Shown here: positions 6,199-46,398 of the stretch, one piece after another
Position numbering within the stretch: the first letter of the stretch is position 1
Layout of the letters: every line of letters starts with the position of its first letter
Assembly (NCBI RefSeq): GCF_003014735.1
Contig: NZ_PYAX01000013.1
Span: forward strand, 1 to 64,000
Source: Saccharothrix carnea
Lineage (GTDB): Bacteria > Actinomycetota > Actinomycetes > Mycobacteriales > Pseudonocardiaceae
Direction of reading: 5' to 3'
Length of the DNA stretch: 64,000 nucleotides
Made by a program: the position numbers and the translations under genes
Notes under the pieces: generated by a model
Told to the model about the DNA's origin: nothing
Seen by the model: the letters and a program-made list of their open reading frames with translations, nothing else
The model's database searches: none

Positions 6199-7409
6199 TG
6201 CGCGACCGCGAGGCGTTCTCGGCGTTGTTGGAGGACAGCGCGGAGGACCTGTACGAGAACGCGCCGTGCGGCTACCTGTCCACGCTGCCGGACGGGCACA
6301 TCGCGAAGGTGAACGGGACGCTGCTGCGCTGGCTGGGGTACGAGCGCGAGCAGCTGGTTGGCCGGCGGCGGTTCGCGGACCTGCTTAGCGTCGGCGGCAA
6401 GCTGTACCACGAGACGCACTTCGCGCCGTTGCTGCGGATGCAGGGCGAGGTCGGCGGGGTGGCGCTGGAGATGGTCGCGGCAGATGGCACGCGGCTGCCG
6501 GTGCTGGTGAACTCGACCGTGCGGATGAGCGGTGACGGCGAGCCGTTGCTGATCCGGACCACGGTGTTCGACGCGAGCGACCGCCGTGCGTACGAGCGCG
6601 AGCTGCTGCGTGCCCGGCAGGAAGCCGAGCGCGAGCGCGACCAGATCCAGCGGCTGGCCACGACCCTGCAGCGGACCCTGCTGCCGCCGGTGCTGCCCGC
6701 GGTGCCGGGTGTGGAGACCGCGACCCACTACCACCACGCCTCGCCGTTCGAGGTGGGCGGCGACTTCTACGACCTGTTCCCGCTGGCGGACGGCCGGTGG
6801 GGGTTGTTCCTCGGTGACGTGTGCGGCAAGGGCGCGAACGCGGCGGCGGTGACTTCGCTGACCCGCTACACGCTGCGTTCGGCGGCCGTGTACGACCCGG
6901 ACCCGGTCGCGGTGCTGACCAACCTGAACGCGGTGCTCAACCAGGAGGCGGCGACGGGGTTCTGCACGGTGGCGTTCGGCGTCCTGACCGTCGAACCGGA
7001 CCGCTGCACGCTCACCCTGGCCGCCGGCGGCCACCCGCCCGGCCTGCTGCTGCGCGCGGACGGCACGGTCGAGTACGTCGAGCTGCCCGGTGGCCAGCTG
7101 ATCGGGATCCTGCCGGACGCCCACATCGCCACCACGACCCTCCACCTGACCCCCGGTGACACGTTCGTGCTGTACACGGACGGGCTGGTCGAGGCGAGGA
7201 CCGGCTCGGACACCCGGTACAGCGAAGAGGAGCTGCTGGACTTCGCCGCCACCCTGCCCCCGGTCTCCGCCGCGGGTGCCGTCGACGCGCTCGTGGGCCT
7301 GCTGGACCGGTTCGGTAGCGGTGTCGAGGACGACGCCGCCGTGCTGGCGATCGGCGTTCCGGCGGGCCTCAGCGGAGCTGGGGTGACCCGAGCAGCCGCC
7401 GGCCCGTGA
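6198..7409 (+). CDS. rsbP: RsbP-like PAS-PP2C serine phosphatase
   Basis: A 403-residue cytoplasmic protein, the same size as B. subtilis RsbP. Order: PAS domain (about 15-125, YENAPCGYLSTLPDGHIAKV), a charged coiled coil (about 128-160, RRAYERELLRARQEAERERD), and a SpoIIE/PP2C phosphatase domain (about 170-395) with the metal-binding aspartates in EVGGDFYDLF, GDVCGKG and VEDDAAVLAIGV. It would dephosphorylate an anti-anti-sigma factor, releasing a stress sigma factor. The start codon ATG 6198 shares bases with the rsbQ stop. No sigma, anti-sigma or STAS gene lies nearby, so the target is encoded elsewhere. The 3' end overlaps a convergent membrane gene by 41 nt. Confidence 0.9.
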   Translation: MRDREAFSALLEDSAEDLYENAPCGYLSTLPDGHIAKVNGTLLRWLGYEREQLVGRRRFADLLSVGGKLYHETHFAPLLRMQGEVGGVALEMVAADGTRLPVLVNSTVRMSGDGEPLLIRTTVFDASDRRAYERELLRARQEAERERDQIQRLATTLQRTLLPPVLPAVPGVETATHYHHASPFEVGGDFYDLFPLADGRWGLFLGDVCGKGANAAAVTSLTRYTLRSAAVYDPDPVAVLTNLNAVLNQEAATGFCTVAFGVLTVEPDRCTLTLAAGGHPPGLLLRADGTVEYVELPGGQLIGILPDAHIATTTLHLTPGDTFVLYTDGLVEARTGSDTRYSEEELLDFAATLPPVSAAGAVDALVGLLDRFGSGVEDDAAVLAIGVPAGLSGAGVTRAAAGP

Positions 7410-7893
7410 CCAGGGCGATGCTCGTGAGCACCAGGGGCATGGTCAGCAGGAGCATGAGCGTCCACACGCCGGGCCAGGAGATGTCCCGGGGTTCGCTGAT
7501 CGGTGCCATCGACACCCCGAGCGACAGGCCGCTGAAGGCCGACATGGTCATGAAGAGCGACAACGCCCAGGCCACGACGATCCCGGAGCGGAGTTCACCG
7601 ACCTTCCGGAGGTCGAGGTGCTCCGCCGACACGTGGCGGCGGGCGGTGAGGAGGAAGACGCCCGCCAGGACCACCATGACGACGCTGGTGCCGGTGAGCG
7701 TCCAGCTGAAGAAGCCGAGCGCCGGGTACACGGGAGGCAGCTGACCGCCCAGCAGGGCGAGGAGCGGGACCAGCACCAGGCAGGCGGTGATCAGCAGCAG
7801 CGCGACCCTTCGGCACGTCGTGCGGATCCGGTGCGCGTGCGGTGCCGGGATCCACAGGTACCTCGGCGGTAGGGGCGGCGGCGGGTAGCTCAC
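7369..7893 (-). CDS. four-helix membrane protein, paralogue of 12164-12667
   Basis: A 174-residue membrane protein of unknown function. A Pro-rich start leads into PPRYLWIPAPHAHRIRTTCR, then four hydrophobic helices (about 33-52, 60-82, 105-127 and 140-162). The same opening (PPRYxxxP followed by a basic stretch and helix 1) occurs in the protein at 12164-12667, so the two are paralogues. The start is taken as GTG 7893; an upstream ATG at 7944 would add 17 residues but would fall inside the hairpin at 7929-7955. It overlaps the 3' end of the rsbP-like gene convergently. Confidence 0.75.
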   Translation of the reverse strand: MSYPPPPLPPRYLWIPAPHAHRIRTTCRRVALLLITACLVLVPLLALLGGQLPPVYPALGFFSWTLTGTSVVMVVLAGVFLLTARRHVSAEHLDLRKVGELRSGIVVAWALSLFMTMSAFSGLSLGVSMAPISEPRDISWPGVWTLMLLLTMPLVLTSIALVTGRRLLGSPQLR

Positions 7894-7928
7894 GGTTCTG
7901 CCAATCCGGTCGGAACAGCCTGATGTCG

Positions 7929-7955
7929 GTGGGAACCGGGCCAACCGGTTCCCAC
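7929..7955 (-). terminator. hairpin terminator downstream of I36-family gene
   Basis: A perfect 11-bp inverted repeat (7929-7939 with 7945-7955) with a 5-base loop lies 22 bases past the stop of the leftward gene at 7978. There is no U tract, as is usual for actinobacterial hairpin terminators. Confidence 0.65.
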
Positions 7956-7977
7956 GCCTGTTCGTTGCGCGTCTACG

Positions 7978-8343
7978 TCACGGTTCCCAGACCTGGATGG
8001 CTCTGACCACAAAAGGAGCGTCGGGAACGTACGTGCCCTTGCCGGGGTAGGTGGTGAACTCGGCCTCGGTCGAACACGTTTCCCGCTGGTAGACCGAGGT
8101 GTCCCTGGTCAGGTTGTTCACGAAGGACCGCGCCACGAAGCCGCCCGGCAGGGGGATGCACTCGCGCGGGTTCGCGGACTCCAGGTCCAGGCGGTGGGAG
8201 TCGCCGGTGTACTTGGTGCCCGACCACACGCAGAACTCGCCTCTGTCGCACGAGGGGTCGGGTTGCTGCGCCACCGCCGTGCCGCTCGACGCCAGGGCAC
8301 CGGTGGTGAGGGCCAGCGCGGTCACGAGGCTGCGGGTCGTCAT
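7978..8343 (-). CDS. secreted peptidase-inhibitor-family I36 protein
   Basis: A 121-residue secreted protein. The signal peptide MTTRSLVTALALTTGALASS ends near SGTAVAQ (about residue 27). The mature part has four cysteines (SCDRGEFC, ECIPLPGG, ETCSTEAE), with the FCVWSGTKYTGDSHRL core typical of the peptidase-inhibitor I36/beta-gamma-crystallin-like family of Streptomyces metalloprotease inhibitors. The start is ATG 8343, preceded by GGAGG eight bases upstream; another in-frame start at 8358 is less likely. Inhibition of a secreted protease is family knowledge and is not shown here. Confidence 0.85.
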   Translation of the reverse strand: MTTRSLVTALALTTGALASSGTAVAQQPDPSCDRGEFCVWSGTKYTGDSHRLDLESANPRECIPLPGGFVARSFVNNLTRDTSVYQRETCSTEAEFTTYPGKGTYVPDAPFVVRAIQVWEP

Positions 8344-8409
8344 ACGGGTCACCTCCACCGGTCCAGGGTGCTGTGATCGGCGGTGGTGTGGGGGCGAGGT
8401 GGCCGCCGT

Positions 8410-9258
8410 TCACCTGATCGTGTGGACGGTTGGGGGTTTCGGCAGCGCGAGGTGCCGGGCGAGGCGGAGGGCGTCGTGCGGGGCGGCGGCGTCCGTGTCG
8501 TTGTCGAAGTAGACGTAGACGTCGTGGTCCGCGGCCCAAGTGCGGATCTTGGCCGACCAGTCGTCCAGTTCGTCGTCGGTGTAGCTGCCGACGTACAGGG
8601 ACTGGTTGCCGTGCAGCCGCACGTAGGCGAAGTCCGCCGTGACGTCTTCGAGGTAGGGGAACCGGCCGGCGGAGTGGGAGACGACCAGCGCGATGCCGTG
8701 CGCGCGGAGCAGGTCGTGGAACTCCGGGACCAGGAACGTCGGGTGCCGGACCTCCAACGCGTGCCGCAGGGGGCGATCGGCGTCGGTGGTGGTCCAGGCG
8801 CGGTCCTCGGCGAGCCGGTCGTCGTGCCGCTCGGCGAGTTCGGCGGCGGCGGTCGTGGTGCGGGGGAGCAGGTCGAAGAACGTCGTCAGGCGTGCGGGGT
8901 CGTAGGCCATCGTCGGGGGCAGCTGCCACAGCACCGGCCCGAGCTTCGGCCCGAGTGCGAGCACACCGGAGGCGAAGAAGTTGGCCAACGGGATCTCCAC
9001 GTCGCGCAACTGCTTGAGGTGCGTGATGAACCGGCCGCCCTTGACCGCGAACAGGAAGTCCTCCGGCGTCTGCCGCGCCCACGCCTGGTAGCTGGACGGG
9101 CGTTGCAGGGAGTAGAAGGAGCCGTTCAACTCGACCGAGGTGAGCAACCCGGAAATGTGCTCCAACTCCCGCCGCTGCACCAACCCCACCGGGTAGAACG
9201 CGCCACGCCACGTCGGGTACACCCAGCCCGACGTCCCGATCCGAACCTCACCCGTCAC
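8410..9258 (-). CDS. DUF72-family protein (first of two)
   Basis: A 282-residue TIM-barrel protein of the DUF72 family (YecE-like). It shows RIGTSGWVYPTWRGAFYPVG at the N terminus, VELNGSFYSLQ, FAVKGGRFITHLKQLRD, LGPVLWQLPPTM, AYVRLHGNQ and VYVYFDNDTD near the C terminus. The biochemical function of the family is not established. The start is GTG 9258, just before the conserved barrel opening. A shorter paralogue lies at 10064-10810, so an arylamine N-acetyltransferase gene is sandwiched between two DUF72 genes. An insertion of about 25 residues in the middle (TTTAAAELAERHDDRLAEDR) distinguishes this copy. Confidence 0.9.
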   Translation of the reverse strand: MTGEVRIGTSGWVYPTWRGAFYPVGLVQRRELEHISGLLTSVELNGSFYSLQRPSSYQAWARQTPEDFLFAVKGGRFITHLKQLRDVEIPLANFFASGVLALGPKLGPVLWQLPPTMAYDPARLTTFFDLLPRTTTAAAELAERHDDRLAEDRAWTTTDADRPLRHALEVRHPTFLVPEFHDLLRAHGIALVVSHSAGRFPYLEDVTADFAYVRLHGNQSLYVGSYTDDELDDWSAKIRTWAADHDVYVYFDNDTDAAAPHDALRLARHLALPKPPTVHTIR

Positions 9259-9295
9259 CTGCCCGGGATACCCGGATGATCTCCGGCATACCGGC

Positions 9296-9326
9296 TTGAC
9301 CTCCAGCGCGCTCGATGGTGCAAGTT
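9296..9326 (+). promoter_or_regulatory. possible promoter with imperfect MerR-like dyad, upstream of nat
   Basis: TTGACC at 9296-9301 overlaps an imperfect dyad (ACCTCCAG at 9299-9306 facing CTCGATGGT at 9311-9319) and ends about 10 bases before the nat start. The arrangement recalls long-spacer MerR-controlled promoters, but the symmetry is poor and no MerR gene is adjacent. Confidence 0.25.
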
Positions 9327-9333
9327 GGTGCGC

Positions 9334-10071
9334 ATGGACGACCGGACGCGTGACGCCTACCTGGCCAGGATCGGTGCGACGCGCACCAGCACCCTGGTCG
9401 AGCTGCACGAACTGCACCTCGCCTCGGTGCCCTTCGAGAACCTGAGCATCCACCTCGGCGAGGAGATCGTGCTCGACGAGGACCTGCTGGTGGACAAGAT
9501 CGTCAACCGGGGCCGTGGCGGGTTCTGCTACGAGCTGAACGGGGCGTTCGCGGCGTTGCTGCGGGCGTCGGGGCACGACGTGCGGATGATGTCGGCCAAG
9601 GTGTTCAACGACGGCGCGTACGGGCCGCCGTTCGACCACCTGGCGTTGCGCGTGGGGGACCTGCTGGTCGACGTCGGTTTCGGGCGGTTCAGCTTGCGGC
9701 CGTTGGATCTCGTCAGCCGGGAGGAGCAGCACGATCCGGCAGGTGTGTTCCGGCTGGTCGACACGCCCGAGGGTGACGTGGACGTGCTGTTCGACGGCGA
9801 GCCCCAGTACCGCCTCGAACTGCGGCCGCGTGCGCTGGCGGAGTTCCGCGCCACGTGCTGGTACCAGCAGACGTGGCCGGGATCGCCGTTCCGGCGTGGT
9901 GCGAGGTGCTCGTTGCCCACGCCGACCGGCCGGATCACCATCGCCGAGCACAAGCTGATCACCACGACCGGGGACGAGAAGGTGGTCGAGGAGCTGGACG
10001 ACGCCGCCCTGCTGGACGCCTACGCCAAGCACTTCGGCATCGTGCTGGACCGCGTGCCCCGGCTCAGCTGA
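9334..10071 (+). CDS. nat: arylamine N-acetyltransferase
   Basis: A 245-residue cytoplasmic enzyme that transfers acetyl from acetyl-CoA to arylamines and hydrazines. The Cys-His-Asp triad is intact: Cys65 in RGGFCYELN, His102 in PFDHLAL and Asp113 in LVDVGFG. FENLSIH near residue 34 is also typical. Length is slightly below the usual 260-280. The start is ATG 9334; TTG and GTG codons just upstream add only three residues. It is convergent with the second DUF72 gene, overlapping it by 8 nt. In some actinomycetes such enzymes act in ansamycin ring closure, but no polyketide genes are nearby, so a xenobiotic role is more likely. Confidence 0.93.
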   Translation: MDDRTRDAYLARIGATRTSTLVELHELHLASVPFENLSIHLGEEIVLDEDLLVDKIVNRGRGGFCYELNGAFAALLRASGHDVRMMSAKVFNDGAYGPPFDHLALRVGDLLVDVGFGRFSLRPLDLVSREEQHDPAGVFRLVDTPEGDVDVLFDGEPQYRLELRPRALAEFRATCWYQQTWPGSPFRRGARCSLPTPTGRITIAEHKLITTTGDEKVVEELDDAALLDAYAKHFGIVLDRVPRLS

Positions 10072-40659: not shown

Positions 40660-41004
40660 TCAGGTTGCGCGCCGCCACCAACGCTTTTTCTTGGGTGGCT
40701 GCAGCTCGCCCCTGGCCGCTGCCCACTCGGCGAACCGCGCGGCGTCCTCGCGGAAGCGCGTGCCGACCTCTTTGGGGTGGGCCCGGGCGTAGTCGTCGAA
40801 CAGGGGCCGGAACCGCTCGCCTAGTTCTGCGGCCACTTCGGGTCGGAGCATCGCCACGATCCCGCGGCGCTTGTTGAGCAGCGCGCGTTTCTCGATGCGC
40901 ACGCGTTCCCGGTCGAAACCCTTGGGCACCTCGCCGTCCGCCAGCAGCGCCCGCAGCAACTCGGCTTGTGCGGCGGCCAGCCGTTCGCGCTGGGGCTGGG
41001 TCAC
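40660..41004 (-). CDS. probable partner protein of the DUF692 enzyme
   Basis: A 114-residue basic helical protein. Blocks such as [40 protein letters not shown] and [15 protein letters not shown] resemble the small helical domain (DUF2063-like) in partner proteins that accompany DUF692/MNIO enzymes, like MbnC, and help bind the peptide substrate. It ends in a Lys/Arg/Trp tail ([10 protein letters not shown]). Its ATG overlaps the DUF692 stop by 4 nt, strong evidence for joint function. The family call is by pattern and context, not certainty. Confidence 0.7.
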
Positions 41005-41807
41005 CCGAGCACCGCCCGGATCGCGGCCAGTTCGCCGGCGAGCTCGGCGTCGGCCGGGTAGTCGTCGTCGCGTTCCAGGAGGACGCCGGGCGGGTCGACG
41101 CGGGAGCGGAGCTGGGCGAGGACGTCGAGCACTTCCGGGCGGACCGCGTGGGCGTGCGTGTCGTGGTAGACGCCTTGGTGCTCCTCGCCGCCGGCGACGT
41201 GGACGTAGGCGAGGCGTTCCAGCGGGATCTCGTCGAGGAAGCGGGCGACGTCGGTGCCGAGGTTGCGGGCGTTGGCGTAGAGGTTGGCGACGTCGACCAG
41301 CAGGTGGCAGTCGGTGCGGTCGACCAGTTCGGCGAGGAACTGGCCCTCGGTGAGCTCGCCGTCCGGCCAGTCGAGCAGGGCCGCCACGTTCTCCAGGGCG
41401 AGGGGGACGGGCAGGTCCTGCTGGGCGGCTTTGACGTTCGCGACGAGGACGTCGAGCGCGTCGCGGGTGCGGGGGAGGGGCATGAGGTGCCCGGAATCCA
41501 AGCCGCCCGCGCGGACGAAGCAGACGTGATCGCTGACCAGTGGGGCGTCGAGGGCTTCAGCCAGTGCGCCAAGGTGCGCGACCCGCTGGGCGTCCACCGG
41601 TTCGGCGCCGCCGAGGGAAAGCGAGACGGCGTGCGGCAGCACTGGAACGCCTCGTTCACGGAGGAGGAGCAGCGACTCCGGCAAGTGCCCGACGTGCAGG
41701 TTCTCCGCCACCACCTCGACGAAATCGACCCCGGGCAACCTCTCCACCGTCAAATCGATCTCCGGCCGCCACCCGATCCCGACACCCAACTTCTCCACGA
41801 CCGACAC
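41001..41807 (-). CDS. DUF692 multinuclear non-heme iron oxidase (MNIO) family enzyme
   Basis: A 268-residue TIM-barrel protein of the DUF692 family (MbnB, TglH, ChrH and BufB are studied members), which use a di- or tri-iron centre to oxidise cysteines in ribosomal peptides. Metal-ligand candidates are conserved: His in [26 protein letters not shown], Glu in ALENVAALL, Asp in [14 protein letters not shown], and the HVAGGEEH...YHDTHAHAV block. It starts at GTG 41807, closely preceded by GGGGAAGG. It is coupled to the small partner gene. Three TIGR04222 proteins with Cys-containing tails lie upstream on the same strand and are plausible substrates. Confidence 0.9.
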
Positions 41808-41849
41808 CCACCTTCCCCGCTAGTATGGAGATCGTCGCCGACCTGACCC

Positions 41850-42640
41850 TCGACACACCATCGAGTGATCATCGAAATCGACACTCAGGAAACGCTGTTA
41901 TCTTCGCCTTCGAACGTCGGTTGGAACAACGAGGAAGCCGGCACAACCCCCGGACCCCTCCGCCTCACCCCCACCCGAGCACCGCCCAGGGGCAATCGAC
42001 ACCGAGTGCGCCACCCGCCCCGGGCCCTGGACACCCCGGCTCGGACGCGATCCACCCCCGGTGCCGGCCCGGCCCAAGCCCTCCGGACGCCCGCCCCCGG
42101 ACACTGCCCCGGCCTGCGGATGCCGCCACCGGCTTGCGGACACCAGCACCGCCCTGCGGACCGCCCGCCCCGCCGACCGCCCGCCCGCCCCGCCGACCGC
42201 CCGCGCCCGGTGCAGCGCGCCCCTGTTCCCCTCCCCAGCCCACGGACACGCTGGCCGCCGCGACCCCGCTCGGCGCGACGCGCCCACGGCCACCCGCGCT
42301 CGCGTCTGGCGCGACCCGCGCCCGGCGTAGCGTCGGCTCGCCGGACGCCCGCGCCCGACGCGATCCGCGCCCGACGCGATCCGCGCCCGGTGCGGCCCGG
42401 CCCCGCAGAAAGCCCGCGCCTGGCGCGACCCCGTCCGCCGGCACCCGCGCCCGGCGGTGATTCGCGCCCGGTGCGACCCTGCTCCGCCGGCCCACCGCAG
42501 AAGCCGCGCCTGGGCGTGATCCGTGCGCGGCGCGACCCCCGCTTGGCCCGTGGGTGCCGTAGGCGGAGCGGCTCGTCGGACGCGGCGGCTTCGGAGCGCG
42601 GAGTGGCTGCGGCTGGGGCTGGGGCGGTGTGGGTGCTGTC
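41850..42640. repeat. GC-rich degenerate repeat region, no gene supported
   Basis: About 800 bases between the TIGR04222 genes and the DUF692 gene. The part at about 42270-42560 is made of short imperfect units built on GCGCCCGACGCGATCC and CGCGCCCGGTGCGACC. Open frames run through it on both strands, but all give Arg/Pro/Ala/Gly low-complexity text without any family likeness, as expected of repetitive GC-rich DNA. The AT-richer edge at about 41820-41920 probably holds the promoter of the DUF692 gene. Confidence 0.6.
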
Positions 42641-42646
42641 CGGTGG

Positions 42647-43471
42647 TCAGTCGCCGCCACCGCCACCCCCACAGCCTCCACCGCCGCCGCACGACGAGCC
42701 GCCGCTGTCCGAACTGCTGCTGCTCCCGCTCCCGCAGCTGCTGCTGGCACAACTGCCGCACCCGCCGCCGCACGAGGCGCCGCCGTCAGAGCCGCTGCCG
42801 CGCGACCGCCGCCGCAACGTAGCCGCCGCGGCCGGTGAGATGCCGAGCACCTCCCACACGTGGTGGCGTTCGACCTTGCCCAGGAGTCCGTAGTACGCGA
42901 CCATGCCGATCCGGTTCGGCGAGATCGCGACCGCCCGCAGCCGCCGCACCGTGAGCCGGCCAGCGCGGGTCAGCGGGCGGGTGGACGGGGCGAGGATCAG
43001 CGAGGCCAGCAGCGCGACCGCGACGGCGATGGCGGCGACCTCGAACGGCAGGTCGAGGGCGAGTTTCGCGAACACCACGACCATCGCCCCGATCACCGTC
43101 AGCCGGCGCACGAGCCGAGCCGCCTTGCGCCTTCCCGCCGACACCACCAGACCCCGGTCGACCAGGTGCCGGCGCAGCGATTGCGCCTCCGGGCCGCGCG
43201 CCGTCGAGGCGATCACGTCGCCCAGCGAGCGCGGCAGCGAGCGCAGCACGCGCGTCTGCAACGGGGTCCGGCCAATACCGTGACCCGCACCGCCGACCGC
43301 GCTGACCAAGCCGTCCCGCGAGATCCGCACGGCACCGGCCTCGACCAGCGACACCACCGCCACCTCGGCCGCCCGGCCCGGACCACCGGCCAGGAATCCC
43401 TGCTCCTCGGGCTCAGCCGTCGAACCCCCCGAACCCGCTGAAGTCGGCGTCCACTGAGTCGCCACCGTCAT
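42647..43471 (-). CDS. TIGR04222-type membrane protein with Cys/Gly/Ser tail (C)
   Basis: A 274-residue protein. The TIGR04222 hallmark is EQGFLAGGPGRAAEVAVVSL near the start (about 22-41). Two adjacent membrane helices lie at about 120-165 (LTVIGAMVVVFAKLALDLPF and the next). The last 50 residues (42647-42799) are only Gly, Ser, Cys, Ala and Asp with six cysteines, e.g. SCGGGCGSCASSSCGSG. Unlike its two upstream relatives it has no N-terminal membrane helix. ATG 43471 follows GGAGGG; the first 59 nt overlap the end of gene B. Two of the three relatives have such a tail; it may be the modified or metal-binding part. Confidence 0.85.
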   Translation of the reverse strand: MTVATQWTPTSAGSGGSTAEPEEQGFLAGGPGRAAEVAVVSLVEAGAVRISRDGLVSAVGGAGHGIGRTPLQTRVLRSLPRSLGDVIASTARGPEAQSLRRHLVDRGLVVSAGRRKAARLVRRLTVIGAMVVVFAKLALDLPFEVAAIAVAVALLASLILAPSTRPLTRAGRLTVRRLRAVAISPNRIGMVAYYGLLGKVERHHVWEVLGISPAAAATLRRRSRGSGSDGGASCGGGCGSCASSSCGSGSSSSSDSGGSSCGGGGGCGGGGGGD

Positions 43472-44345
43472 CGCCCTCCAACCACTGCGCAGCCAGCCAT
43501 CCACCCGCGAACCACCCACCGGCCACCAGCCACCCGTTGCGCCGCTGCCAGCGTTGCGGTTCGACCACCACGGCACGCCTGCGCCGCGGGAGCGGTGCCT
43601 GGGACGTTTCCCCAGGTGCGATCGGTTCCGCCCGTTCGCCGTCGAACACCGCCGTCTCCGACCGTGCCGACCCCTCACGCGGCACGGGCGGTGGGACGGC
43701 GGTGCGCGACGAACCGGAACGGACCAGGCCGTAGCGGGCGGTCACCTCGGCCGGATCGACCGGGGCGAGGCCCGCCGTGGCCTCCTCGTACGCCCGCGCG
43801 CCACGCCTCGTCAGGACGGGCGGCGGACCCAACAGCAGCAGGACGCCGAGCGCGCCGGTGACCGACAGCGCGGTGACCGTCACCCACCCACCCGGACCTG
43901 CGAACACAGCGACCACCGCGAGCGCCGCCACCGGCACGACCGCCAGCACCGCCCGCGCCAACCGCCGCCGCGGCGACACCAGCAGCCCGCCCGCGACCAG
44001 GCGTTGCCCGATCTGCCGAGCCGGTCCGCTGGTGGCCGCGCCGACCACGAGCTCGTCCAGGTCACGCGGCTGCGTGAGCCGGGCGAGCACGACCGCCTGC
44101 AACGCGGTGGCCGGCTGTTCCTCACCGGGCACCGCCGCGACCACCGAACCGGACACCCGTGCCCGGTTCTCGGCCACCAATCCCGCCAACGCCACCTCGA
44201 CCGCCCGCACCGGGCCACCGCCGAGGTAGCCGATCTCCTCGAACGACAACGGCCGGTCGGGCACGGCGCCGGCGACCCGCTTCAACCGCAGGCCCACCAC
44301 CACCGCGGCGACGAGCGCCGGGCCGTACCACCACAGGAACGTCAT
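43413..44345 (-). CDS. TIGR04222-type membrane protein with Gly/Asp/Phe tail (B)
   Basis: A 310-residue membrane protein. N-terminal helix MTFLWWYGPALVAAVVVGLR, then the family hallmark EEIGYLGGGPVRAVEVALAG (about 35-54), two further helices (about 130-175, VLAVVPVAALAVVAVFAG and a second), then a cytosolic-type linker and a Trp/Gly-rich segment (NGWLVAGGWFAGGWLAAQWL). It ends in DDGGDSVDADFSGFGGFDG. The tail has no cysteines, so this member is not an obvious substrate and may be structural. It is 85 bases after gene A and overlaps gene C by 59 nt. Confidence 0.85.
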   Translation of the reverse strand: MTFLWWYGPALVAAVVVGLRLKRVAGAVPDRPLSFEEIGYLGGGPVRAVEVALAGLVAENRARVSGSVVAAVPGEEQPATALQAVVLARLTQPRDLDELVVGAATSGPARQIGQRLVAGGLLVSPRRRLARAVLAVVPVAALAVVAVFAGPGGWVTVTALSVTGALGVLLLLGPPPVLTRRGARAYEEATAGLAPVDPAEVTARYGLVRSGSSRTAVPPPVPREGSARSETAVFDGERAEPIAPGETSQAPLPRRRRAVVVEPQRWQRRNGWLVAGGWFAGGWLAAQWLEGDDGGDSVDADFSGFGGFDG

Positions 44346-44430
44346 GGCCGCCACCCTAGGAGCCGTCCGGTCGAACCCGGCCGCGATCACGGAACCGTAA
44401 GAACCTCGTCAACCGGGGTCGGCCCCGGGA

Positions 44431-45339
44431 TCAGCCACCGCCGCCACCGCCGCCGCAGCCACCCCCGCCACCACCACAGCTGCTGCCGCTGGAGCAACTG
44501 CTCCCGCCACCGCAGCCGCCGCCTGTCGTCGCGCCGAACGACCCCGCCGCGGAACCCCCGCTCGACGCCACGCGAGGACGCGGACGTGGACGCGCCGCCG
44601 CACGCAAAGTGATGTCCGGGTGCCCGCCGAAACCGTTGAGAGCGACCAGCTCGGCGGCTTTCGTCGAGCCGGTCCCTCCCCACCCCCCGGTGACCTCGCC
44701 TGCGCGAGCCTTGGCCACCGCGTCACGTCCGTTCGCGGTGAGCGTCCTCGAAGCCGGCTGCAGCAGTCCCCAGATCAGCAAGCCGGTCAGCACGAGCAGC
44801 AACGTCAACGGCCACACCGGCGCGTTGACCACCTGCTGGGTCACCCAGCGCGCCACGCCGACGACGAACAGCAACGCCATCGGCGCGACACCGGTCCGCA
44901 ACCGCCGTCGCACCACGTCCGGCGCGACCAGGCAGTCCAGTTCGGACAGTCGGCGGCCGATCGCGTGCGGCGCGTCGTGCTCCGACACCGAGGTGATGAG
45001 CAGCGTCAACGTCCGGTATTGGTAACGCTTGGCGTCGGCGAGCACGGCCTGGTCGACCGGGTGGTCGGCCACGGGAGTGCCGACGAGCCGCACGGCGCCG
45101 TTGCGGGCGGGCACCAGGGCGCCCGAGTCGATGAGTCCGGCCACGGACGCCTCGACCACCCGTCGAGGCCCGCCGGTCAGGTAAGCGATGTCCAGCACGC
45201 CGAGCACACCCGCGGGGGAGGCTCCCCGCGTCCCCCGCAGGCGCACTCGGACGTAGAGCGCGAAGGCCAGCGACACGGCCAGCGCGATCCAGTACAGCTC
45301 AAGGAATTCAGGGCCTGAAAGCCCCCACGGTCGCTCCAC
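44431..45339 (-). CDS. TIGR04222-type membrane protein with Cys/Gly/Ser tail (A)
   Basis: A 302-residue membrane protein. N-terminal helix LELYWIALAVSLAFALYVRV, then the family hallmark DIAYLTGGPRRVVEASVAGL (about 50-69), and two helices at about 153-193 (APMALLFVVGVARWV and PLTLLLVLTGLLIWGLL). The last 43 residues (44431-44562) are Gly/Ser/Ala/Thr with four cysteines, e.g. GGGCGGGSSCSSGSSCGG. The start is GTG 45339. First of three related genes transcribed toward the DUF692 enzyme. Proteins of this family typically end in such low-complexity tails; their function is unknown. Confidence 0.87.
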   Translation of the reverse strand: MERPWGLSGPEFLELYWIALAVSLAFALYVRVRLRGTRGASPAGVLGVLDIAYLTGGPRRVVEASVAGLIDSGALVPARNGAVRLVGTPVADHPVDQAVLADAKRYQYRTLTLLITSVSEHDAPHAIGRRLSELDCLVAPDVVRRRLRTGVAPMALLFVVGVARWVTQQVVNAPVWPLTLLLVLTGLLIWGLLQPASRTLTANGRDAVAKARAGEVTGGWGGTGSTKAAELVALNGFGGHPDITLRAAARPRPRPRVASSGGSAAGSFGATTGGGCGGGSSCSSGSSCGGGGGGCGGGGGGG

Positions 45340-45477: not shown

Positions 45478-45543
45478 TCAGGAGGACGACGCGCCGTCCA
45501 CGCCGCCGGAGCCCTCGCCGTCAGTGCCCTTGAAAACGCGCAT
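45478..45543 (-). CDS. 21-residue peptide with near-ideal ribosome site
   Basis: A short frame from ATG 45543 to TGA 45478. AGGAGG lies four bases before the ATG, one of the best ribosome sites in the window. The peptide starts MRVFKGTDGEG and ends DGASSS, so it is Gly/Ser/Asp-rich with no cysteine. It lies 45 bases after the msrB stop and 138 bases before TIGR04222 gene A, all on one strand. It may be a leader peptide, a small structural peptide or a precursor. Coding status rests on the ribosome site and clean stop alone. Confidence 0.5.
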   Translation of the reverse strand: MRVFKGTDGEGSGGVDGASSS

Positions 45544-45588: not shown

Positions 45589-46026
45589 TCAGTCTGCTCG
45601 ACCGTCCGGGCTTTCGACCAGACGCAAGCTCACCGAGTTGATGCAGTAGCGCTGATCGGTGGGCGTGTCGTACCCCTCGCCCTCGAACACGTGCCCGAGG
45701 TGGCTGTGGCACGCCGCGCACAGCACCTCGGTCCGGACCATGCCGTGGGCGCGGTCCTCGCGGAGGATGACCGCGTCACCGGCCAGCGGCGAGAAGAACG
45801 ACGGCCAGCCGCAGTGCGACTCGAACTTCGTCTCGCTGCGGAACAACTCGGCCCCGCACGCGCGACACTCGTAGACGCCCTCGGTCTTCGTGTCGGTGTA
45901 CTCGCCGACCCACGCCGGTTCGGTGCCCGCGTCGCGCAGCACCGCGTACTCCTTCGGGGTCAGGATGTCCCGCCACTCAGACTCGGAGCGGACCACCTTC
46001 GGGGTGGCGCCGACGACAGGTTCCAT
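45589..46026 (-). CDS. msrB: peptide-methionine (R)-S-oxide reductase
   Basis: A 145-residue cytoplasmic repair enzyme reducing methionine R-sulfoxide. Zinc pairs CRACG and CAACH, HCGWPSFF with the substrate-binding tryptophan, GHVF, and the catalytic Cys in QRYCINSVSLRL (about residue 129) are all present. The start is ATG 46026. Length is normal for MsrB. Its position just upstream of the 21-codon frame and TIGR04222 gene A on the same strand may be incidental. Confidence 0.96.
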   Translation of the reverse strand: MEPVVGATPKVVRSESEWRDILTPKEYAVLRDAGTEPAWVGEYTDTKTEGVYECRACGAELFRSETKFESHCGWPSFFSPLAGDAVILREDRAHGMVRTEVLCAACHSHLGHVFEGEGYDTPTDQRYCINSVSLRLVESPDGRAD

Positions 46027-46083: not shown

Positions 46084-46398
46084 TCAGGAGAAGAACACCC
46101 AGACGAGGGTGCCCAGGTAGTACCAGACGCTGATCAGCACACCCAGCAGGATCAGGCCGACCACGACGACCGCGGTGAGCCGGCGCAGGCCGCCGGCGCG
46201 GTTCGCCGAGTCCGCGAACTGCCCGACGCCCGCTACGGTGCCCTCGATGGTGAAGCTGGGTGGCTGCTGCTTCATCCGGCCAAGGTGCTCGGCGAACGCC
46301 CTGGTCTCGGGGTCGTCGGGGTCGAGGCCGATCAGTTCGTCGTCGATGTCGCCCTGCGGGCGATCGTCGGGTGCGTCCGCGGCTCTGGCGCTGGCCAT
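46084..46398 (-). CDS. small membrane protein, function unknown
   Basis: A 104-residue protein. The first 70 residues are acidic and soluble (DDELIGLDPDDPETRAFAEH). A hydrophobic region at about 73-103 (LTAVVVVGLILLGVLISVWY onward) makes one long or two short membrane helices ending at the C terminus. I do not recognise a family, though similar small membrane proteins are common in actinomycetes. It starts at ATG 46398 and runs toward msrB, with 57 bases between the genes. Confidence 0.7.
   Translation of the reverse strand: MASARAADAPDDRPQGDIDDELIGLDPDDPETRAFAEHLGRMKQQPPSFTIEGTVAGVGQFADSANRAGGLRRLTAVVVVGLILLGVLISVWYYLGTLVWVFFS

Follow-up and report, generated by a model that had tools for sequence, protein, structure and literature searches.

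Introduction

Subsets of the TIGR04222 membrane-protein family have been proposed as substrates of multinuclear non-heme iron-dependent oxidative enzymes (MNIOs; DUF692), without a demonstrated role (Antoine et al. 2025, PMC12452194). According to that survey, 40% of the cysteine-bearing, signal-less proteins encoded before MNIO genes belong to TIGR04222; 490 of 1372 TIGR04222 genomes had no MNIO, the association was called loose, and partner proteins were reported in at least 10% of TIGR04222/MNIO clusters. The same work defined PME-type 2 partners and modelled a 115-residue example from Saccharothrix (model A). TIGR04222 is also named in the literature within a bacteriocin-like cluster of Pseudonocardia. 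That TIGR04222 tails serve as MNIO substrates is an idea already published as a prediction by Antoine et al. (PMC12452194), and we here describe a locus with the same enzyme family, membrane-protein family and partner type. It lies in the window, i.e., the 64,000-nucleotide stretch of contig NZ_PYAX01000013.1 that was analyzed as part of an 8.9-Mb actinobacterial genome. Our comparison departs from the published clusters in that (i) the link is far tighter, with TIGR04222 proteins above the curated cut-off nearly always accompanied by an MNIO, (ii) the partner is universal and often fused to the enzyme, (iii) the tails of two TIGR04222 proteins, A and C, are predicted to be cytoplasmic, a probable correction of topology, and (iv) a conserved small peptide gene is added.

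We propose that the locus would constitute an actinobacterial protein-modification cassette, vertically inherited, in which a cytoplasmic MNIO–partner complex would oxidize cysteines, mostly at Cys-Gly sites, in the Gly/Ser/Cys tails of TIGR04222 proteins. Proteins A and C would be the putative substrates here, with B a cysteine-free paralogue. The tails would lie on the cytoplasmic face together with the enzyme, as extensions of a GOLPH3-like domain in the cytosol that is itself held to the membrane by transmembrane (TM) helices; the product is perhaps thiooxazole-like, as in bufferins and captophorins, and might bind copper at the inner membrane face. Taken as a whole, the reading that MNIO and partner oxidize cytoplasmic cysteine tails of TIGR04222 proteins is in our judgement probable on comparative-genomic grounds. 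Tight linkage, a universal and sometimes fused partner, selection on tail cysteines and parallel loss of enzyme and cysteines emerge from comparison of the sequences themselves; the catalytic event, tail topology and partner function we infer, and on the product type and copper binding at the inner face we speculate by analogy. If the proposal is correct, a common actinobacterial gene set modifies full-size membrane proteins in place via an oxidative enzyme of the type acting on ribosomally synthesized and post-translationally modified peptides (RiPPs), and the scope of MNIOs would widen beyond small secreted peptides.

Other described MNIO systems resemble the locus in part. Bufferins and captophorins (Buf1, Buf2, EGKCG; PMC13097082) share with it a related MNIO, Cys-Gly targets, partner dependence and a small core gene set; their precursors, however, are short and bear Sec signals, and their partners are full proteins of DUF2063 plus RiPP recognition element (RRE), whereas the present locus pairs a short, DUF2063-like partner with membrane proteins as putative substrates. 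Membership in the bufferin/captophorin group was rejected, A, B and C being membrane proteins without a Buf/EGKCG motif and the 21-residue peptide of the locus being cysteine-free. The MbnB–MbnC pair of methanobactin synthesis has a homologous MNIO, and the fold of the present partner resembles MbnC; however, no short MbnA-like precursor with a cysteine core was found at this locus, and the enzyme is far nearer to BufB (203 versus 59 bits). MNIOs of the ChrH subfamily target C-termini in proteins above 30 kDa and lipoproteins (PMC12636315), a precedent for modifying C-terminal protein tails and membrane-attached products, but the present enzyme belongs to another subfamily (58 bits to the ChrH model) and the C-terminal motif differs.

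Organization of the locus

A preliminary description of the window had placed on one strand three TIGR04222 proteins and a DUF692 enzyme whose gene shares 4 nt with that of a partner-like protein, a layout that the profile scores confirm. On the minus strand the order is msrB, a 21-codon open reading frame (ORF), A, B, C, a gap, the MNIO gene and the partner gene:

40660–41004, minus strand: MNIO partner protein, 114 residues, four-helix, DUF2063-like, PME-type 2 (subthreshold DUF2063 match, fold model)
41001–41807, minus strand: MNIO (DUF692) enzyme, 268 residues, with all candidate metal-ligand motifs (PF05114, 282 bits)
41808–42646, no strand: intergenic gap of ~0.84 kb between the MNIO gene and the TIGR04222 genes, GC-rich and partly repetitive
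42647–43471, minus strand: TIGR04222 protein C, 274 residues, no TM1, TM2–TM3 hairpin, cysteine tail (89.8 bits, profile 20–204)
43413–44345, minus strand: TIGR04222 protein B, cysteine-free GFGGFDG tail (83.1 bits)
44431–45339, minus strand: TIGR04222 protein A, 302 residues, TM1 plus GOLPH3-like domain split by a TM hairpin, cysteine tail (109.9 bits)
45478–45543, minus strand: unannotated gene for the 21-residue peptide MRVFKGTDGEGSGGVDGASSS (AGGAGG ribosome site, conservation)
45589–46026, minus strand: msrB, conserved upstream neighbour, context outside the proposed system (TIGR00357, 158.7 bits)

All three TIGR04222 scores exceed the curated cut-off of 43 bits (NCBIfam model near_uncomplex). 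The tail of A (44431–44562) holds four cysteines and that of C (42647–42799) six, as had been reported correctly, with the cysteine tails proper at 44434–44562 and 42650–42799; the tail of B consists of Gly, Phe and Asp with no cysteine, and a cysteine-free B orthologue occurs in most Saccharothrix loci. The ORF listed for C extends back to 43678, with ATG 43471 as the likely start; with this start C lacks the first TM helix and shares 59 nt with B, for which ATG 44345 is the probable start.

The enzyme matches PF05114 (MbnB_TglH_ChrH) with 282.2 bits against a gathering score of 25. Its motifs PHAVSLS, SDH, LEN, DVAN, HVAG, DTH and ERD align with 3bww and TglH 8hci, and the key residues of the metal-site motifs are invariant across 34 enzyme orthologues; the exact metal ligands within these motifs are presumed. 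By enzyme, the nearest named relatives are Saccharothrix species, with identity up to 99%.

Linkage of TIGR04222 and MNIO genes across genomes

Only three TIGR04222 genes of the whole 8.9-Mb genome pass the cut-off, and all three lie at this locus, beside one of its three MNIO genes; on this ground chance adjacency is excluded. Co-occurrence was counted in a family sample of 150 genomes and a phylum sample of 248, with TIGR04222 scored above the curated cut-off and profiles for relatives built from the window proteins. In the family, 89 genomes carry TIGR04222 and 86 an MNIO: 84 have both, 5 TIGR04222 only and 2 MNIO only, such that an MNIO is found in 84 of 89 TIGR04222-positive versus 2 of 61 negative genomes (Fisher P=4e-33, a value that ignores shared ancestry). 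In the phylum sample an MNIO accompanies TIGR04222 in each of the 22 genomes that carry it, with the genes adjacent, and occurs in 4 of 226 others (P=9e-28). Co-occurrence beyond chance, the check that the preliminary description had named for its proposed link, is thus borne out at both scales.

Thirty further phylum genomes gave sub-cut-off TIGR04222 matches only, most of the listed frames being long (500–1000 residues), and the one such match checked in the present genome proved to be a DUF2207 protein. That the published survey saw a loose association may partly reflect the counting of sub-cut-off, DUF2207-like, cysteine-free proteins, along with unrecognized partners.

Linkage of this kind could also mean that the genes are neighbours by coincidence, retained through vertically inherited synteny within a conserved part of the chromosome; for this the stable context speaks, an msrB homologue standing upstream in 36 of the 80 named loci. 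Yet the flanks differ from family to family around a constant core of TIGR04222, MNIO and partner, the linkage survives the reversed gene order of Streptomyces, and enzyme and tail cysteines are lost jointly; we regard coincidence as extremely improbable. With its three-gene core in differing but stable flanks, the cassette looks like a housekeeping trait and not a mobile natural-product cluster.

Tail cysteines and the state of the enzyme

Outside the Streptomycetaceae, 91 of 94 loci have at least one TIGR04222 protein with two or more tail cysteines, and a cysteine tail is present in all 75 named loci that have a TIGR04222 gene. The three exceptions are a locus that starts at a contig edge, with its TIGR04222 genes on another contig (L255); one in which the MNIO is split over three frames, possibly by sequencing error, and one tail cysteine remains (L096, genome G047); and one in which a deletion has merged the start of a TIGR04222 protein with an MNIO that is missing its first residues (L260, genome G029). 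In that last arrangement (L260/L306, Actinophytocola gossypii), the TIGR04222 N-terminus MSNPWGLSGPAFLWLYAGG is fused in frame to the shortened MNIO. Three genomes without the enzyme (G017, G099 and G149) retain TIGR04222 proteins above the cut-off with no tail cysteine, and the tail of G017 is still Gly/Ser rich despite this.

The cysteines themselves bear signs of selection. Each of 96 Gly/Ser tails has at least two cysteines in its last 40 residues, and the tails contain 414 TGC/TGT codons versus 8 CGC/CGT, both pairs being one step from the same Gly codons. Across 49 relatives the last two cysteines of the A tail are at least 90% conserved, and Gly follows a tail cysteine in 83% of cases versus a 54% Gly background. 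At the other end of the protein, a PWGLSGPxF motif before TM1 is nearly invariant in TIGR04222, with W5 and G6 invariant in 49.

Several points weigh against tail oxidation. The co-occurrence counts are uncorrected for phylogeny, and two genomes (G090 and G097, both fragmented assemblies) have cysteine tails and no MNIO that was found. Of 15 Streptomycetaceae loci, 11 carry an MNIO–partner fusion without a cysteine tail (nine with a cysteine-free TIGR04222 protein, two with none), so the enzyme can persist there without such a tail, perhaps with another substrate; the remaining four keep the tail. In the 11 loci (L223–L231, L236 and L237), VEN and DSH replace LEN and DTH at two metal-site motifs, while the four cysteine-tailed loci retain LEN and DTH. 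This change, which may represent one ancestral event, suggests that the substrate has changed in the tail-less fusions.

Such loci bear on a second alternative, namely that the cysteine tails bind metal or form disulfides unmodified and that the MNIO targets, say, the 21-residue peptide or a non-cysteine TIGR04222 residue. Besides the retention of the enzyme by Streptomyces without cysteine tails, this alternative draws on the conserved Asp/Ser/Gly peptide encoded at the operon head and on the ability of MNIOs to modify Asp, Asn, Phe or Tyr, as reported in PMC12452194 and PMC12257519. The peptide, however, occurs in three genera only, whereas the link between enzyme and cysteine tail is phylum-wide, and where the enzyme is missing (the three genomes above) so are the tail cysteines. 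We hold unmodified tails to be quite unlikely.

The partner protein

The partner ORF overlaps the MNIO gene by 4 nt (GTGA). Its DUF2063 match is subthreshold (E=0.0059, 17.3 bits versus a gathering score of 27.2), and a similarly weak match occurs in 18 of 60 partner relatives. Using a profile built from the small window protein, homologues were found at every one of the 109 loci that have this type of MNIO and in none of four other MNIO loci; all 80 named loci likewise have the partner. The partner is fused to the MNIO in 16 loci, 15 of them Streptomycetaceae-type, which gives indirect support to its binding the enzyme or the precursor. From its position, universality and fusion to the enzyme, the small protein likely acts as the MNIO partner.

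Its gene lies directly after that of the MNIO and its product has no DUF2063 match above the gathering score, as in PME-type 2; assignment as a PME-type 1 DUF2063-RRE partner was rejected for a protein of 114 residues below that score. An AlphaFold2 (AF2) model (predicted local distance difference test, pLDDT, 89.5) was searched blind against 350,542 PDB chains, and MbnC 7dz9_C ranked first (Foldseek E 2.8; VIA Z 5.5, next 3.2; root-mean-square deviation, rmsd, 4.1 over 92 aligned residues). The model thus lends moderate support to an MbnC-like fold; the sequence profile of the partner found no relative in the PDB. A putative partner gene of Streptomyces, SCO6045, has one transcriptome mention in the literature.

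Membrane topology of the tails

Three lines of evidence place the tails of A and C probably on the cytoplasmic side. First, all 114 three-TM relatives follow the positive-inside pattern, with the N-terminus outside and the domain and post-TM3 region inside (mean Lys/Arg in the flanks of 3.25, 3.1 and 3.7 inside versus 0.39 and 0.77 outside). Second, C has neither TM1 nor a signal, so its domain and tail should both stay cytoplasmic. Third, in the AF2 model of A (pLDDT 83), residues 43–252, which span the TM hairpin, have GOLPH3/Vps74 9qpq_B as their top structural match (Z 8.4, rmsd 5.2, 145 residues aligned; unrelated rows reach Z about 7). Since the match covers both sides of the hairpin, the post-TM3 helices appear to be part of the cytosolic fold, with the tail following.

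The possible relation to GOLPH3/GPP34 shows in profiles as well, hhalign giving 75.6% probability (E 2.4e-5, pairwise) against bacterial GPP34 in a comparison that drew on Streptomyces genomes; a Pfam scan of the window proteins gave no GPP34 match, and GOLPH3, unlike TIGR04222, has no TM hairpin. TIGR04222 also weakly matches the DUF2207_C region of DUF2207 membrane proteins, which differ in an extra N-terminal domain and, among the sub-cut-off relatives, in cysteine-free Gly tails. In DUF2207 proteins the N-terminal domain precedes the first TM helix and is generally taken as external, a layout that would fit a cytosolic side for the part homologous to TIGR04222.

Conversely, the tails might be periplasmic or surface-exposed, modified before export and forming an external copper-binding layer, as the preliminary description and Antoine et al. 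(2025) have it. The latter place TIGR04222 tails in the periplasm by TM-topology prediction (PMC12452194), and in 60 of 131 relatives the post-TM3 segment, with a mean hydropathy of at least 1.5, is a possible fourth TM helix; such a helix would move the tail outside, so the family-wide topology is less firm than that of A. In A itself, however, this segment scores 0.63, and its post-TM3 helices align together with the N-terminal part into the GOLPH3-like fold. Furthermore, a TM-less TIGR04222-like protein of Streptomyces (L264, 2706–3401, minus strand), encoded away from the MNIO locus, also has a one-cysteine tail, ending GGGGGGGCGGD. A surface location of the A and C tails was rejected on the positive-inside pattern, the TM1-less C and the GOLPH3-like fold, and external tails seem to us unlikely. 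Of the earlier idea that the enzyme modifies the tails to form a surface, the modification part has gained from comparative genomics, whereas the surface part gives way to predicted cytoplasmic tails. A copper or redox role of the tails would follow by analogy.

A conserved gene for a 21-residue peptide

The preliminary description saw no classic short precursor beside the enzyme and missed a gene of 21 codons (45543–45478) at the operon head, between msrB and A, with an AGGAGG site; its product is cysteine-free here and in all but one species. A pattern for the conserved part of the peptide matched once each in 17 of the 150 family genomes, always at this locus, and the reversed pattern matched in none of the 150. 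The gene lies 146–207 nt ahead of the TIGR04222 match and is confined to three genera (Saccharothrix, Lentzea and Umezawaea); in the sole genus member without it (G082), the interval between msrB and A is shortened. Among 24 distinct DNA sequences of the gene, 15 of 16 third codon positions vary while the residues are nearly invariant, and one Ser switches between TCC and AGC. By this codon pattern, the ORF is a real gene under purifying selection, and its product is a candidate second substrate, signal or regulatory peptide. One could go further and picture inner-face metallophore or redox tails, unlike exported bufferins, combined with a clade-specific, cysteine-free second substrate or signal of 21 residues; we offer this only tentatively, as doubtful but conceivable.

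Neighbouring features and further MNIO loci

GC-rich tandem repeats with units of 16–20 bp and 65 bp lie in the gap between C and the MNIO gene (41860–42640), with repeats located at 42098–42207 and 42308–42479. No promoter emerged from a sigma-70 scan, and there was a single terminator-like site, fewer than expected from shuffles. In Pseudonocardiaceae, a small CrgA-like membrane protein (46084–46398, minus strand) stands with msrB upstream of the cassette.

Read from sequence, the second MNIO locus of the genome (G000:C2:311083-311859; L258, about 6260–9957) comprises a cysteine-rich ORF with HVCMGLNACKG/HVCHGDNQCRG repeats, the MNIO, a DUF2063-like partner and a ferritin-like protein, and the third MNIO (G000:C12:140500-141285; L257) adjoins a DUF2063-like protein, a ferritin-like protein and an ECF-type sigma factor.

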